Below the pieces are notes generated by a model. It was not told the origin of the DNA, did not search any database, and was given only the letters and a program-made list of their open reading frames with translations. The translations under genes and the position numbers were made by a program. DNA of 64,000 nt, taken from positions 2,946,710 through 3,010,709 of the forward strand of contig NZ_BOQE01000001.1 of assembly GCF_023705585.1 (NCBI RefSeq), read 5' to 3'. The DNA comes from Collibacillus ludicampi. GTDB taxonomy: Bacteria; Bacillota; Bacilli; Tumebacillales; BOQE01. Positions 4,361 through 18,554 of this stretch are shown here, one piece after another (within the stretch, counting starts at the first letter, position 1; every line of letters starts with the position of its first letter).

Positions 4361-4523
4361 CCTTTTCACCTCCTTAAAAAAACCTTTTACGATCCATCAA
4401 GAGGACATTGGCTATTTTATCACGTGAAAACTGGAAAAGCAACTCATCGATTTGTATAGTGACGATTGTTTTTAAATATCCTAAAGGCTAAGAGTGTAGC
4501 TACCAGAAAGGGGATCCTTCCGT

Positions 4524-9485: not shown

Positions 9486-9596
9486 CAACATTCGAGCGAT
9501 TTCAATTTCGTTTTACGTTGAAGTTGCGGTACACTCTTTGTTTCATTGAATATGCTTCGATTACAGCTTTTTTTATCAATGAAAGGAACTAGAACA

Positions 9597-10886
9597 ATGA
9601 CTGATTCTGTTGAAGCAATACTTAAAGAAGTGGAACAGAAATTCGCTTCCGAACGATATAATGAGGGAATCCGCTTGTTAAATCGTGCGTTGCGTTTTCC
9701 CGAATACCGTCGTGAAGTGTATGAACGATACGCGTTCGCCCTTAGAATGTTAGGCAGACACCAAAGTGCAGATCTGTTTGAACAAGTGTTGCTCCAGCCG
9801 CGACGAGCAGACGCTTTTTTTCAATTGGGGAACCGATTTATTGATGAGGGGATGTTCGGGCTGGCGTTGGCACCTTTATACCGGTGTTATCAACTTGCCC
9901 CCAAAGAAGCGGTGGTAAACTATACCCTCGCTTACGCCCTCATGAAAGAATTTCAAATAGAAGCCGCTTTATCGTTCATGCGCAGAGCTTATGAAATAGA
10001 GCCCCTTATCCATGTGATTTATTCTATGGCTTATCTCCATCTTCTCTTGGGAAATCCTGAACAAGCAGATCCTTATTTGCTTGAATTGGATCATAAAGTT
10101 CGTCAGGAAGAAGAGGGAATGGAACGACTGAAATATTTGCGGGAATTTCGAAAACGTTTGCTCGCGCATCCTCCCAAGGATATTCGCGATTTCCATTTCG
10201 CCCAGTACGGAACGGTTCTGTTGCGTGTGTTTAAGGATGATTTTCCACACGTGCAGGAAGACCCTGCTCATGGCCGTTATGCGGTCGCATCGTTTAATTA
10301 CTATCAAGTAGCATCCGTTTTGAGGGCATTTCAATTATTGATTGAAACAGTTGTTACAAAACCCGCTTACTCCTATGTTGTATCTGTTTCGCAACAAGGA
10401 ACACCTTTGGCCCTCGCGCTTTCACGGATGTTGGCGATACCTATGATTGCTTTTTCCGATTCCCCCGAAAGAAGCCCGGGAATCATCGTGGCTGTTAATT
10501 CTGATGAAATCAATGAGATCGCACGCTTTTATATCGATCGGCCAGAACATCTCATCTTCGCTTTTTCTGTTGATTGGACTCGGGAAACCGCAATGTTGCC
10601 CGATGTGATCGGATATCTGGCGCAACTGGCATTTTTACCTTGGCAAGAGCGTCTCGAAATCGGAGAGAACGGGGAAGCAGTACGTCTGCCCGCAGATGAG
10701 CGAAGCCCTGTACAACTCGCCGATGAGATTATGAAACAGTTGGACCAAGTCGAGCAGTCGTATGTCTCAGCGTTGGCTCGATATTTCAAAGAACGCCAAG
10801 AGCTATGGAAGCTCGGGTTGAACACCGACCGTCCGCGCAAACGGTTCCTCGTGGAATCTCCGCTCGGTGGTGCCAGGTTTATGTAA
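9597..10886 (+). CDS. TPR-repeat protein with unassigned C-terminal domain
   Basis: A 429-residue soluble protein of unknown role. Residues 1 to about 180 look like tetratricopeptide repeats: repeated helix pairs such as ASERYNEGIRLLNRALRFP, ADAFFQLGNRFIDEGMFGLA and AVVNYTLAYALMKEFQIEAA. After about residue 200 comes an alpha/beta domain with YSYVVSVSQQGTPLALALSR and IIVAVNSDEINEIARFYIDR; its start vaguely recalls a phosphoribosyltransferase or thiamin-fold strand-loop-helix, but the PRPP-binding acidic motif is absent, so I do not assign it. ATG at 9597 follows AAAGGAAC; an upstream in-frame ATG at 9546 lacks a ribosome site. It lies between lepA and hemW, where Bacillus has no such gene. 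Confidence 0.7.
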   Translation: MTDSVEAILKEVEQKFASERYNEGIRLLNRALRFPEYRREVYERYAFALRMLGRHQSADLFEQVLLQPRRADAFFQLGNRFIDEGMFGLALAPLYRCYQLAPKEAVVNYTLAYALMKEFQIEAALSFMRRAYEIEPLIHVIYSMAYLHLLLGNPEQADPYLLELDHKVRQEEEGMERLKYLREFRKRLLAHPPKDIRDFHFAQYGTVLLRVFKDDFPHVQEDPAHGRYAVASFNYYQVASVLRAFQLLIETVVTKPAYSYVVSVSQQGTPLALALSRMLAIPMIAFSDSPERSPGIIVAVNSDEINEIARFYIDRPEHLIFAFSVDWTRETAMLPDVIGYLAQLAFLPWQERLEIGENGEAVRLPADERSPVQLADEIMKQLDQVEQSYVSALARYFKERQELWKLGLNTDRPRKRFLVESPLGGARFM

Positions 10887-12148: not shown

Positions 12149-12178
12149 TTGACAAGGACAAGAAAGCTCTGGTATCCT
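12149..12178 (+). promoter_or_regulatory. Sigma-A promoter of the hrcA-dnaK operon
   Basis: -35 TTGACA (12149-12154), 18-base spacer, -10 TATCCT (12173-12178). The predicted start is about seven bases before the CIRCE operator. Confidence 0.75.
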
Positions 12179-12189
12179 TCAACTGAAGA

Positions 12190-12216
12190 TTAGCACTCAA
12201 GTGTATGGAGTGCTAA
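12190..12216 (+). promoter_or_regulatory. CIRCE operator (HrcA binding site)
   Basis: Perfect TTAGCACTC, nine-base spacer, GAGTGCTAA. HrcA binds this inverted repeat and represses class I heat-shock genes until it is titrated by misfolded proteins. Here it controls the first gene hrcA and so the whole operon including the group III chaperonin. Confidence 0.97.
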
Positions 12217-12235: not shown

Positions 12236-13264
12236 ATGTTGACAGAGCGCCAACAATTGATCTTGCGTATCATTGTTGATGATTATGTACAATCGGCCGA
12301 GCCAGTAGGTTCCCGTTTGATTTCAAAACATATAGAAGTCTCTCTGTCTCCGGCGTCTATTCGGAATGTGATGGCTGATCTTGAAGAAATGGGTTATTTG
12401 GAACAGCCTCATATCTCATCCGGTCGTGTTCCTTCCGAAAAAGGATATCGATTCTATGTCGATCATCTTTTGCCACCCGTTTCTGTCAGTGAGGAAGAGG
12501 TCAGGGCCATCCGCAGACTGTTAATGGAGAGAATCGATGAGATGGAGCAGGTCGTCCAGCAGACAGCCCAGATTCTCTCATCATTGACGAACTATACGTC
12601 GATCGTTTTAGGACCTCAAATCTACGAACAAACCTTAAAACATTTGCAATTGATCCCTCTTCATGAGCGGTCGGCCGTGGCGATCATGGTCACGAATACA
12701 GGAAGAGTTGAAAACAAAAAGGTTACTGTTCCCGAAGGAATCTCGTTGGATGAAATTCGTAAACTCGTTGCGATTCTAAACGAGAAGTTGACAGGGACAC
12801 CGATTTATCAGATCAAGAAGCGCTTATATGATGAGATCGCTCACGAGTTGCGTCGATATATGGAACAGTTCGAAGGCGCGATGGATCTGTTCAATCAAAT
12901 CGTGAAGACAGATGCGAATGAGCGCATATACCTGGGAGGTACAGCGAAGATTCTGGATCAGCCAGAATTTCGCGATGTGGAAAAACTTCGTCCTCTGCTC
13001 GACATTCTAGAACAAAGCAAAACGGTCGTTCAGCTGTTGGGAGCCAATGAGGAACCAGGGATTCGCGTGCGCATCGGACAAGAAAACGATGTTGATGAGT
13101 TTAAAAATTGTTCCGTGATTTCTGCATCCTATGCGATTGACGGCAAACATGTCGGAGCTATCGGTGTGATTGGTCCTACGCGCATGGATTACGCCCGTGT
13201 GATCAAGATCATCAACCATCTCGCGGCAGGACTGTCTGCCGCATTAACCCGTTTGCATAAATAA
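12236..13264 (+). CDS. hrcA: Heat-inducible transcription repressor HrcA
   Basis: Repressor of class I heat-shock operons, 342 residues. The N-terminal winged-helix part begins LTERQQLILRIIVDDYVQSAEPVGSR and includes SPASIRNVMADLEEMGYL and the HISSGRVPSEKGYR wing, all typical. The C-terminal GAF-like part contains GVIGPTRMDYARVI. The start ATG follows GGAGGCGACG. It autoregulates through the CIRCE element 20 bases upstream. In most Bacillota the chaperonin needed to keep HrcA active is GroEL; whether the group III chaperonin next door also does this is unknown. Confidence 0.96.
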   Translation: MLTERQQLILRIIVDDYVQSAEPVGSRLISKHIEVSLSPASIRNVMADLEEMGYLEQPHISSGRVPSEKGYRFYVDHLLPPVSVSEEEVRAIRRLLMERIDEMEQVVQQTAQILSSLTNYTSIVLGPQIYEQTLKHLQLIPLHERSAVAIMVTNTGRVENKKVTVPEGISLDEIRKLVAILNEKLTGTPIYQIKKRLYDEIAHELRRYMEQFEGAMDLFNQIVKTDANERIYLGGTAKILDQPEFRDVEKLRPLLDILEQSKTVVQLLGANEEPGIRVRIGQENDVDEFKNCSVISASYAIDGKHVGAIGVIGPTRMDYARVIKIINHLAAGLSAALTRLHK

Positions 13265-13329
13265 GATCAGGTTGTTCATAATGCTTTGTGTACATGGTAA
13301 TGGAAACTTGTTACAAGGATTCGATGTAC

Positions 13330-14883
13330 ATGTCGAACAATAAACAAAAGTGGAGTGAACAAGAGGATCGCCACTCGACACTGCTGTCGAATGCTCAAGC
13401 GGTCCGTGCAGTGACTGCCGCCGTCGAAGGGACGTTGGGTCCCAAAGGGCTTGATACCATGCTGGTCAGTCGTAACGGCGATGTGATCGTCACAAACGAT
13501 GGGGTCACCATATTAGATTTAATGGAGATCACCCATCCCGCAGCGAAGATGCTGATCAACATTGCACGCGCGCAGCAGGATGAAATCGGTGACGGCACGA
13601 CGACCGCCACCTTGCTGGCGGGGGCTCTCGTGCAAGAAGCCTGTGCCCATGTGCAGACGGGTGTCCCCGTCACAAGGGTCATCGAAGGTATCCAGCAAGG
13701 AATTTCGCGCGCTTTGGAAGAAATACAAGCGCGCAGCCGCCCGCTAGAGCAAGTGGATGACCCTCGGCTTTTACAGGTGGCAAGAATCGCCGGAAGGGAA
13801 CATGGGGATATCGCTTCACTTGTCGTCAAAGCTGCACAACTGATGGGCTTGGAAAAATTGAGAGACCCATCTTTTCGTCTCTCCGAGATGATCGTGTCGT
13901 CCGTCGGTGCGACGAGCGAAGTGTTTCACGGTCTTCTGCTGAATAAGCAACGAATGAGCCCGCATATGCCGGAGAAAGTCGAAAAGACATGGGTCTTCTT
14001 GCTTGACGATGCGTTGGAAGCGGAAGGAATCGATGAAGAAGCATTGCGTACGGAAACTGGCTTTCAAACCTATTTGCAGTACAAAGAGGAATTTCGCCAA
14101 TCGGTACGGCGTTTGATTGATCTTGGTGTTCGCTTCATTTGTACGGGTCGTGGAGTATCTCCGGTTGCAGAGGAAATGCTCACGGAAGCCGGTGTATTTG
14201 TGGTACAGCGTGTTTCTTCACGCGATATGAGGCGACTTGCCGATTATACGGGTGCCCGACCTGTGAAACGCACAGGTTTGCACAAGTCTCCCGATGAACT
14301 GAAAAAAATGTTGGGCTGGTGTGCACACGTTTATCAAGATAAACGCATGGATATGATTCGGTTGGAAGGCGGTCATGGTAAACCCATGGCCACCATTTTG
14401 GTAGGAGCGACTACGGCCGAAGTTGTTGGCGAGAGGGCTCGCATTGCAAAAGATGCAGCGTCTTCAGTACAGGCGGCCGTACGCGGAGGTATTGTACCCG
14501 GCGGTGGCGCTCTGGAATTGTATATCAGCCGCGTCATTGAGAAATATCGCGAGAAGGTTCGCGGTATGGCGGCTTACGGTGTTGACGCCGTTGCTAAGGC
14601 TTTGCGTCGCCCGATTACACAAATCGTGTTGAATGCGGGCTTCAATCCGCTGGAAAAAATCGAAGATGCAAACGCCGGACAGATTCATACGAACTGCGAT
14701 TCGCTCGCGATCGATTGTGAAAGTGGCGAAGTTGTTGATATGATGAAGCGAGGGGTCTTAGATCCGACACTTGTGAAATATCACGCCCTCAAGGCTGCAG
14801 GCGAGGTTGCCGTTGCCGTTTTGCGAATTCAAACGATCGTTCGCATGCGGAGCGACGGGATGGAAGACCAAGGCGGATTCTAA
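13330..14883 (+). CDS. Group III (archaeal-type) chaperonin
   Basis: A TCP-1/thermosome-like Cpn60, not GroEL. Seen: GPKGLDTMLV near residue 36, VTNDGVTILDLMEITHPAAK near 56, the ATPase loop GDGTTTATLLAG at 87, ERARIAKDAASSV with the catalytic Asp near 375 and PGGGALEL near 392. The wording of these motifs follows archaeal group II chaperonins (thermosome: GPKGMDKML, NDGATIL, HPAAKM). Bacterial group III chaperonins of this kind are known from Carboxydothermus and other Bacillota inside dnaK operons, work without GroES and have a built-in lid. Here it lies between hrcA and grpE, 66 bases after hrcA, so it is under CIRCE control. Starts at 13288, 13324 and 13330 are in frame; ATG at 13330 has AAGGA nine bases upstream. 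517 residues. Confidence 0.9.
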   Translation: MSNNKQKWSEQEDRHSTLLSNAQAVRAVTAAVEGTLGPKGLDTMLVSRNGDVIVTNDGVTILDLMEITHPAAKMLINIARAQQDEIGDGTTTATLLAGALVQEACAHVQTGVPVTRVIEGIQQGISRALEEIQARSRPLEQVDDPRLLQVARIAGREHGDIASLVVKAAQLMGLEKLRDPSFRLSEMIVSSVGATSEVFHGLLLNKQRMSPHMPEKVEKTWVFLLDDALEAEGIDEEALRTETGFQTYLQYKEEFRQSVRRLIDLGVRFICTGRGVSPVAEEMLTEAGVFVVQRVSSRDMRRLADYTGARPVKRTGLHKSPDELKKMLGWCAHVYQDKRMDMIRLEGGHGKPMATILVGATTAEVVGERARIAKDAASSVQAAVRGGIVPGGGALELYISRVIEKYREKVRGMAAYGVDAVAKALRRPITQIVLNAGFNPLEKIEDANAGQIHTNCDSLAIDCESGEVVDMMKRGVLDPTLVKYHALKAAGEVAVAVLRIQTIVRMRSDGMEDQGGF

Positions 14884-14902: not shown

Positions 14903-15481
14903 ATGAAACAAGAACAGGAACACGAGAAAAGTGAAAAGGAAACACCGGTAACCGAGGAAACGGCAGAAGCCACTGTCGAACAAAAGCCAGAGGAGACAGA
15001 AGATCAGGAACTGACGCAGGAAAACAATCCTGCAGAAGCGGAAATCGAACGATTACACGCGGAATTGCAGGATCTTCAGAACCGTTACCTGCGTGTGCAG
15101 GCCGATTTTGATAACTTCCGCAAACGTTCGCGGCAAGAGAAGGAAGAATTGAGCCAATACGCCACCATGCGTCTGGTACAGGAGTTGCTCCCTGTAATTG
15201 ATAATTTCCAATTGGCAATGAATGCACAAACAGATGATGTGGATACACTCAAAAAAGGCATTGACATGGTTTGGCGACAACTGCAACAGATATTGGAGAA
15301 AGAAGGCTTGTTTCGGATGGAAACCGTCGGTCAGCGATTTGATCCGAATGTGCACGAAGCGGTCATGCAAGTGGAAGCGACGGAAGAATTTCCATCAGGG
15401 ACTATTGTCGAAGAGCTTCGTTCCGGTTACAAATTGAAGGAGAAAGTTATTCGTGCAGCCATGGTAAAAGTTGCACAGTAA
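14903..15481 (+). CDS. grpE: DnaK nucleotide exchange factor GrpE
   Basis: Dimeric co-chaperone that releases ADP from DnaK. The first 50 residues are acidic and disordered, followed by the long coiled coil (AEIERLHAELQDLQNRYLRV), the conserved ADFDNFRKRSRQEKEE and the C-terminal beta-domain ending GYKLKEKVIRAAMVKVAQ. Length 192. ATG at 14903 has AAGGAGGGATC upstream; the frame reaches back into the chaperonin gene but without a ribosome site. Only 19 bases separate it from the chaperonin stop. Confidence 0.96.
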   Translation: MKQEQEHEKSEKETPVTEETAEATVEQKPEETEDQELTQENNPAEAEIERLHAELQDLQNRYLRVQADFDNFRKRSRQEKEELSQYATMRLVQELLPVIDNFQLAMNAQTDDVDTLKKGIDMVWRQLQQILEKEGLFRMETVGQRFDPNVHEAVMQVEATEEFPSGTIVEELRSGYKLKEKVIRAAMVKVAQ

Positions 15482-15511: not shown

Positions 15512-17359
<1,848 letters not shown>

Positions 17360-17373
17360 GTCGGTGATCCCTT

Positions 17374-18507
17374 GTGAGTAAACGAGACTATTACGAAGTG
17401 CTGGGCGTCAGTCGAACGGCCAGCACAGACGAGATTAAAAAGGCGTACCGGAAGCTTGCGAGAAAATATCACCCGGATGTCAACAAAGATGACCCGCAAG
17501 CGGAAGAAAAGTTCAAAGAGATAACGGAAGCATATGAAGTGCTCTCCGACAACGAGAAGAGAGCTCGTTATGATCAGTTTGGTCACGAAGATCCCGGTGC
17601 CGCCGGATTCGGTGGGCAAGGGTTCAGTGGATTCGGAGACTTCGGCGGGTTCGGTGACATTTTTGATATGTTCTTTGGCGGGGGCGGGAGACCGCGCGGG
17701 CCTCGTCAGGGAGCGGATTTGCAGTATAATTTACAATTGGATTTCAAAGAAGCGGCTTTCGGTGTGGAGAAAGAATTGGAAGTTCCGCGGATGGAGGAAT
17801 GTCAAACCTGTCACGGAACGGGTTCTAAACCGGGCTTCTCTCCAGAGACTTGTAAGATCTGCCGAGGAACCGGGGTTCAAGAACAGATCATCAACACGCC
17901 GCTCGGGCGGATGGTGAATCGCCGAACCTGCCAAGCATGCGGCGGGGACGGGAAACGAATCACGCATCCATGCAGCGAATGTCACGGCGCTGGGCAAGTG
18001 CGCGTTCGTCGCAAAATCCATGTGAAAATCCCGGCTGGGGTGGACACAGGGAATCGCATACGCATCCCGGGTGCAGGCGAAGCGGGTGAGAAAGGAGCTA
18101 AGCCCGGCGATCTGTATGTGATCGTTCATGTGCGTGAGCATGAATTCTTCCGGCGCGAGGGACAGGATGTATATTGTGAAGTCCCGATTTCTTTTGTGCA
18201 AGCGGCTCTCGGCGATGAGATCGAGGTGGAGACGCTTGATGGCCGGGCGAGACTTCGGATTCCTGAGGGGACGCAAAGCGGTACGTTATTTCGCCTGCGC
18301 GGACGCGGCATTCCTTTTGTCCACAGCGACCGACGAGGCGATCAACACGTTCGCGTGAATGTCATTACCCCTCGTCAGTTGACAGAGAAACAAAAAGAAT
18401 TGTTGCGTCAATTAGGGAAAGAATTAGGAGTGAATCCTCAGGAACAAACGCGTTCCTTCTTTGAAAGAGTGCGCGATGGTGTAAAAGACGCTTTTAACTG
18501 GGATTGA
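17374..18507 (+). CDS. dnaJ: Chaperone DnaJ (Hsp40)
   Basis: Stimulates DnaK ATPase and delivers substrates. J domain at residues 1-70 with the HPD triad in KYHPDVN, a Gly/Phe-rich linker with repeated GFGG units, then four zinc-binding repeats ([32 protein letters not shown]) and the C-terminal peptide-binding domains. 377 residues. The start is GTG at 17374, 15 bases after dnaK. The operon terminator follows. Confidence 0.97.
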
Positions 18508-18520
18508 TCGTTTTGCAGGT

Positions 18521-18554
18521 GAGCCCACGGATTCATACCGTGGGCCTCTTATTT
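18521..18554 (+). terminator. Intrinsic terminator of the heat-shock operon
   Basis: GCCCACGG / CCGTGGGC with a seven-base loop followed by CTCTTATTT. Confidence 0.7.

Follow-up and report, generated by a model that had tools for sequence, protein, structure and literature searches.

A 64,000-nt stretch of Collibacillus ludicampi DNA (the window) carries a gene of the Cpn60/TCP-1 family between hrcA and grpE, and this position raises two questions: to which chaperonin group does the gene belong, and did it enter the operon recently or descend with it? The following features were identified around the gene.

Gene, operon and control sites

12149-12178 (+): sigma-A-like promoter, TTGACA-18-TATCCT, the second hexamer preceded by TG, called by consensus match only
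12190-12216 (no strand): perfect CIRCE operator, TTAGCACTC-N9-GAGTGCTAA (0 mismatches, 0 expected by chance)
12236-13264 (+): hrcA, heat-inducible repressor (TIGR00331, 378.6 bits, above cut-off)
13330-14883 (+): Group III chaperonin (Cpn60/TCP-1 family), 517 aa (profile, tree, alignment, model)
14903-15481 (+): grpE (PF01025, 176 bits), beginning 19 nt past the chaperonin stop
15533-17359 (+): dnaK (NF001413, 1004.5 bits)
17374-18507 (+): dnaJ (TIGR02349, 474.8 bits)
18523-18545 (+): terminator-like hairpin 3' of dnaJ (8 pairs, 7 GC)

The gene order was HemW, CIRCE, HrcA, chaperonin, GrpE, DnaK, DnaJ and PrmA, with intergenic gaps of 65, 19, 51 and 14 nt from hrcA through dnaJ, and profile matches and coordinates thus confirmed a preliminary description that had placed the chaperonin between hrcA and grpE of an hrcA-grpE-dnaK-dnaJ operon headed by CIRCE. 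The only CIRCE of the window is the perfect site at 12190-12216, located just after the sigma-A-like promoter, and it lies upstream of the operon and close to the promoter, as in the HrcA/CIRCE regulon layout. Sigma-A-like sites numbered 14 in the region against 10.7 expected by chance, and the call at 12149-12178 is strengthened by its placement before the CIRCE. The hairpin after dnaJ is the strongest terminator-like hairpin of the + strand, and no + strand terminator-like site was found between 12312 and 18295.

The chaperonin frame is intact and free of internal stops, ends with TAA at 14881-14883, and stays open further 5' as far as GTG 13288. We took ATG 13330 as the probable start because homologues align from it; an RBS-like AAGGA (13315-13319) lies 10 nt before this codon, and the start and stop proposed in the preliminary description agree with the homologue alignment, the AAGGA and the TAA. 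The protein matched Pfam Cpn60_TCP1 with 391 bits, and the ATPase residues described earlier as intact were all found in the alignment (TND57G, GD88GTT and D375), so that the three catalytic aspartates D57, D88 and D375 are retained.

Upstream of the operon, the protein encoded at 9546-10886, between lepA and hemW, gave weak tetratricopeptide-repeat matches and no further family; lepA and hemW are close neighbours in several relatives.

Assignment of the chaperonin to a group

Sequence, predicted structure and phylogeny support the assignment of the window chaperonin to Group III. The best PDB sequence match was 9rwq (620 bits, alignment nearly gapless), which has the highest score but is a resurrected ancestral protein and no natural gene; it was deposited as 'ACII', and its sequence is plainly Group III-like (compare PMC12696368). 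Ch-CPN of Carboxydothermus hydrogenoformans (5x9u) scored 471 bits, and natural thermosomes 237 bits or less. An AlphaFold model built from 36 homologues reached a mean pLDDT of 91.8, and its best PDB folds were 5x9v and 5x9u ('group III chaperonin', closed and open), above all thermosomes.

Taking the defining features of Group III from An et al. 2017 (PMC5635000), we aligned the window chaperonin with Ch-CPN, two solved thermosomes and the genome's own GroEL. The nucleotide-sensing loop is missing (a gap in the alignment), R156 is the equivalent of Ch-CPN Arg155, at the position where Group II has Lys, and is invariant among the 36 homologues, and the lid is shortened by 3+1 residues, a deletion identical to that of Ch-CPN; the gene also lies inside a bacterial DnaK operon, as is characteristic of Group III. 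The window protein resembles Ch-CPN (5x9u/5x9v; PMC5635000) in fold, in lacking the loop, in its equivalent of Arg155, in the shortened lid, in the catalytic Asp residues and in gene slot, although sequence identity is 44-45% and Ch-CPN comes from another class of the phylum. Archaeal thermosomes (Group II) likewise have the fold, the built-in lid and the Cpn60_TCP1 family in common, but they differ in the longer lid, the separate clade, the lower PDB scores and the nucleotide-sensing loop with its Lys, the Group II feature that the window protein lacks. NCBIfam thermosome models scored about 303 bits, under their cut-offs of 400-671 (thermosome equivalog: 303 against 450), which is as expected for Group III, yet no positive test by itself. 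In a tree of 72 chaperonins, Groups I, II and III were cleanly apart, and the window protein fell with Ch-CPN in a Group III clade of 48 rows (support 95), within which the deep branching order is weakly resolved.

A divergent paralogue of GroEL (Group I) would account for the common Pfam family and for matches to GroEL models, which are of lower score; this reading is practically untenable, for the same tree places the protein outside Group I with full support, the fold search puts Group III and thermosomes first, the protein possesses a built-in lid region but lacks the GGM tail of GroEL, and the genome's own GroEL is a separate locus. We rejected it on tree placement and fold. The Group III identity given in the preliminary description is thus borne out by the missing loop, R156, the lid deletion, the fold search and the tree, in which the protein sits in Group III and not inside GroEL.

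Distribution and descent of the gene

At a homologue threshold of E <= 1e-80 in even samples of genomes, the gene was carried by 8/14 genomes of the order, 60/399 genomes of the class (37/145 genera) and 127/398 genomes of the phylum (85/267 genera). Reading 'Bacilli' as the window's class, the earlier remark that such genes are uncommon in the Bacilli holds in that carriers are a minority, but about 15% of class genomes and a quarter of genera carry one.

Besides the window, 49 carrier loci were inspected (including L131, which has an internally deleted copy), and all 49 showed the order CIRCE-hrcA-chaperonin-grpE-dnaK with a perfect CIRCE. At 35 non-carrier loci grpE came next after hrcA, and the interval gave no chaperonin match. 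The chaperonin of locus L149 has zero branch length to Ch-CPN 5x9u and its locus reads CIRCE-hrcA-cpn-grpE-dnaK-dnaJ, so the window has the same arrangement as the prototype, in line with the Carboxydothermus-type dnaK operon invoked in the preliminary description. The arrangement is the standard Group III layout and no oddity of this genome: of the 195 Group III chaperonins tallied by An et al. 2017 (PMC5635000), a single one lay outside a DnaK operon. Such genes in dnaK operons have already been described and ours adds one member, so rarity and arrangement deserve less weight than they were first given; the gene does add a well-resolved Group III member, in a class of which only a minority of genomes has one. 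Searching the literature for descriptions specific to the Bacilli returned nothing relevant, and scans of genome contigs and viral contigs with exact peptide patterns of the window protein, which were too specific, returned no bacterial Group III relative.

Several carriers deviate in detail. Between chaperonin and grpE, locus L147 has a further CIRCE-like site (4425-4451, gene orientation; 3 mismatches). TNAG replaces TNDG in the chaperonins of L147 (2806-4371, genome G699) and L130 (4804-6357, G329), a loss of the Asp equivalent to GroEL D52; the L130 protein is, in addition, missing a portion of the lid region and forms a long branch, and judging from these sequences both proteins may be slow or inactive ATPases. 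In L120 and L052 (G191 and G122) the chaperonin alignments continue beyond a TAG stop at the extreme C-terminus; the slightly shortened protein is probably still functional.

The split between the class and the rest of the phylum was recovered both in the chaperonin tree (support 100/98) and in a tree of the HrcA+GrpE+DnaK+DnaJ operon (support 100). On the operon tree carriers and non-carriers are interleaved, and constraining the order's carriers to one clade was rejected (p-AU 0.0036). Carriage changed at least 8 times in a 70-row class tree, 4 of the changes being forced by well-supported branches, although parsimony counts alone cannot separate gain from loss. Two loci hold decayed copies between hrcA and grpE: a 49-residue C-terminal chaperonin remnant in L205 (1585-1728), whose operon-tree sister is one carrier, and the internally deleted copy in L131 (3540-4759), whose sisters are three non-carriers. 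To judge by their sequences, both appear to be losses in progress. Because of these decayed copies and the interleaving of non-carriers with carriers, we favour an old, vertically inherited gene that was repeatedly lost, the direction of change (loss and not gain) being our inference; some exchange between close relatives may also have occurred. We further consider it likely that the Group III gene already stood in the hrcA-grpE slot in the ancestor of the phylum's sampled classes and was lost many times independently. If so, its sporadic presence would reflect dispensability beside GroEL and DnaK, not repeated archaeal acquisition.

Two other accounts of the gene's presence were weighed against vertical inheritance. 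The genome is in 7 contigs, as an assembly artefact or contamination might have it, but the gene lies within a 3.99-Mb contig and is free of stops, and seven same-order genomes carry it in the identical slot at 62-64% identity; misassembly, which absence of the gene from other isolates with this locus would have suggested, was rejected since independent genomes of the order share both gene and slot, and is scarcely conceivable. The other account, that the gene came recently by horizontal transfer from an archaeon or some other carrier and landed between hrcA and grpE in this lineage, would fit one discordance: the operon tree joins the window organism with the non-carrier families f3 and f4 (100/99), and the chaperonin joins the carrier family f2 (100). 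The chaperonin, however, is 63% identical to that of f2, no higher than the operon neighbours predict (HrcA 57.5%, DnaJ 63%, DnaK 82%), and this agreement in divergence argues against recent transfer; the protein also lies inside its own class's clade, every carrier locus has the identical slot, and two relatives retain decayed copies there. We rejected recent transfer as very unlikely. Under vertical inheritance with repeated loss, the invariant slot and the losses bear on whether Group III is old in bacteria or horizontally scattered, and sister lineages that differ in carriage of the gene offer natural comparisons of the chaperonin's role.

Predicted function and the other CIRCE sites of the genome

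The explanation as a whole, a Group III chaperonin working as a GroES-independent hexadecamer, co-induced with Hsp70 through HrcA/CIRCE, and encoded in an old slot from which it was repeatedly lost, is in our judgement very probably correct. HrcA acts at CIRCE. We presume that hrcA, the chaperonin gene, grpE, dnaK and dnaJ are transcribed together from one promoter that HrcA would repress through the CIRCE, so that by analogy heat or unfolding stress would induce the chaperonin along with DnaK-DnaJ-GrpE. Ch-CPN is a hexadecamer with a built-in lid and no co-chaperonin (PMC5635000); like it, the window protein most likely forms a homo-hexadecamer of two eight-membered rings, and it would fold its substrates through ATP-driven closure of the lid, with no need of GroES. 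DnaK may pass clients to it, a delivery proposed by others (PMC5635000, PMC5220055). Slot and gene would have come down from an early representative of the phylum, with relatives losing the gene repeatedly.

The genome contains two Cpn60_TCP1 genes, the single-copy Group III gene and GroEL at C1:1930485. GroEL is likewise CIRCE-linked, but it belongs to another clade, depends on GroES and occupies another locus. Both groES and groEL, whose presence the preliminary description had left to be checked, are there with a perfect CIRCE of their own, so the Group III chaperonin is extra to an ordinary GroES-GroEL, as is generally reported for such bacteria (PMC5220055). Perfect CIRCE sites number three in the genome: before hrcA, before groES-groEL, and at C1:1402140. 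The third (G000:C1:1402140-1402166; 1501-1527 of locus L003) lies in a gap without an obvious heat-shock gene; on its minus strand an RBS-like site leads to ATG AAT TTA CAG TAA and then to about 50 more open codons, a stretch that resembles a small gene, either broken or unrecognised.
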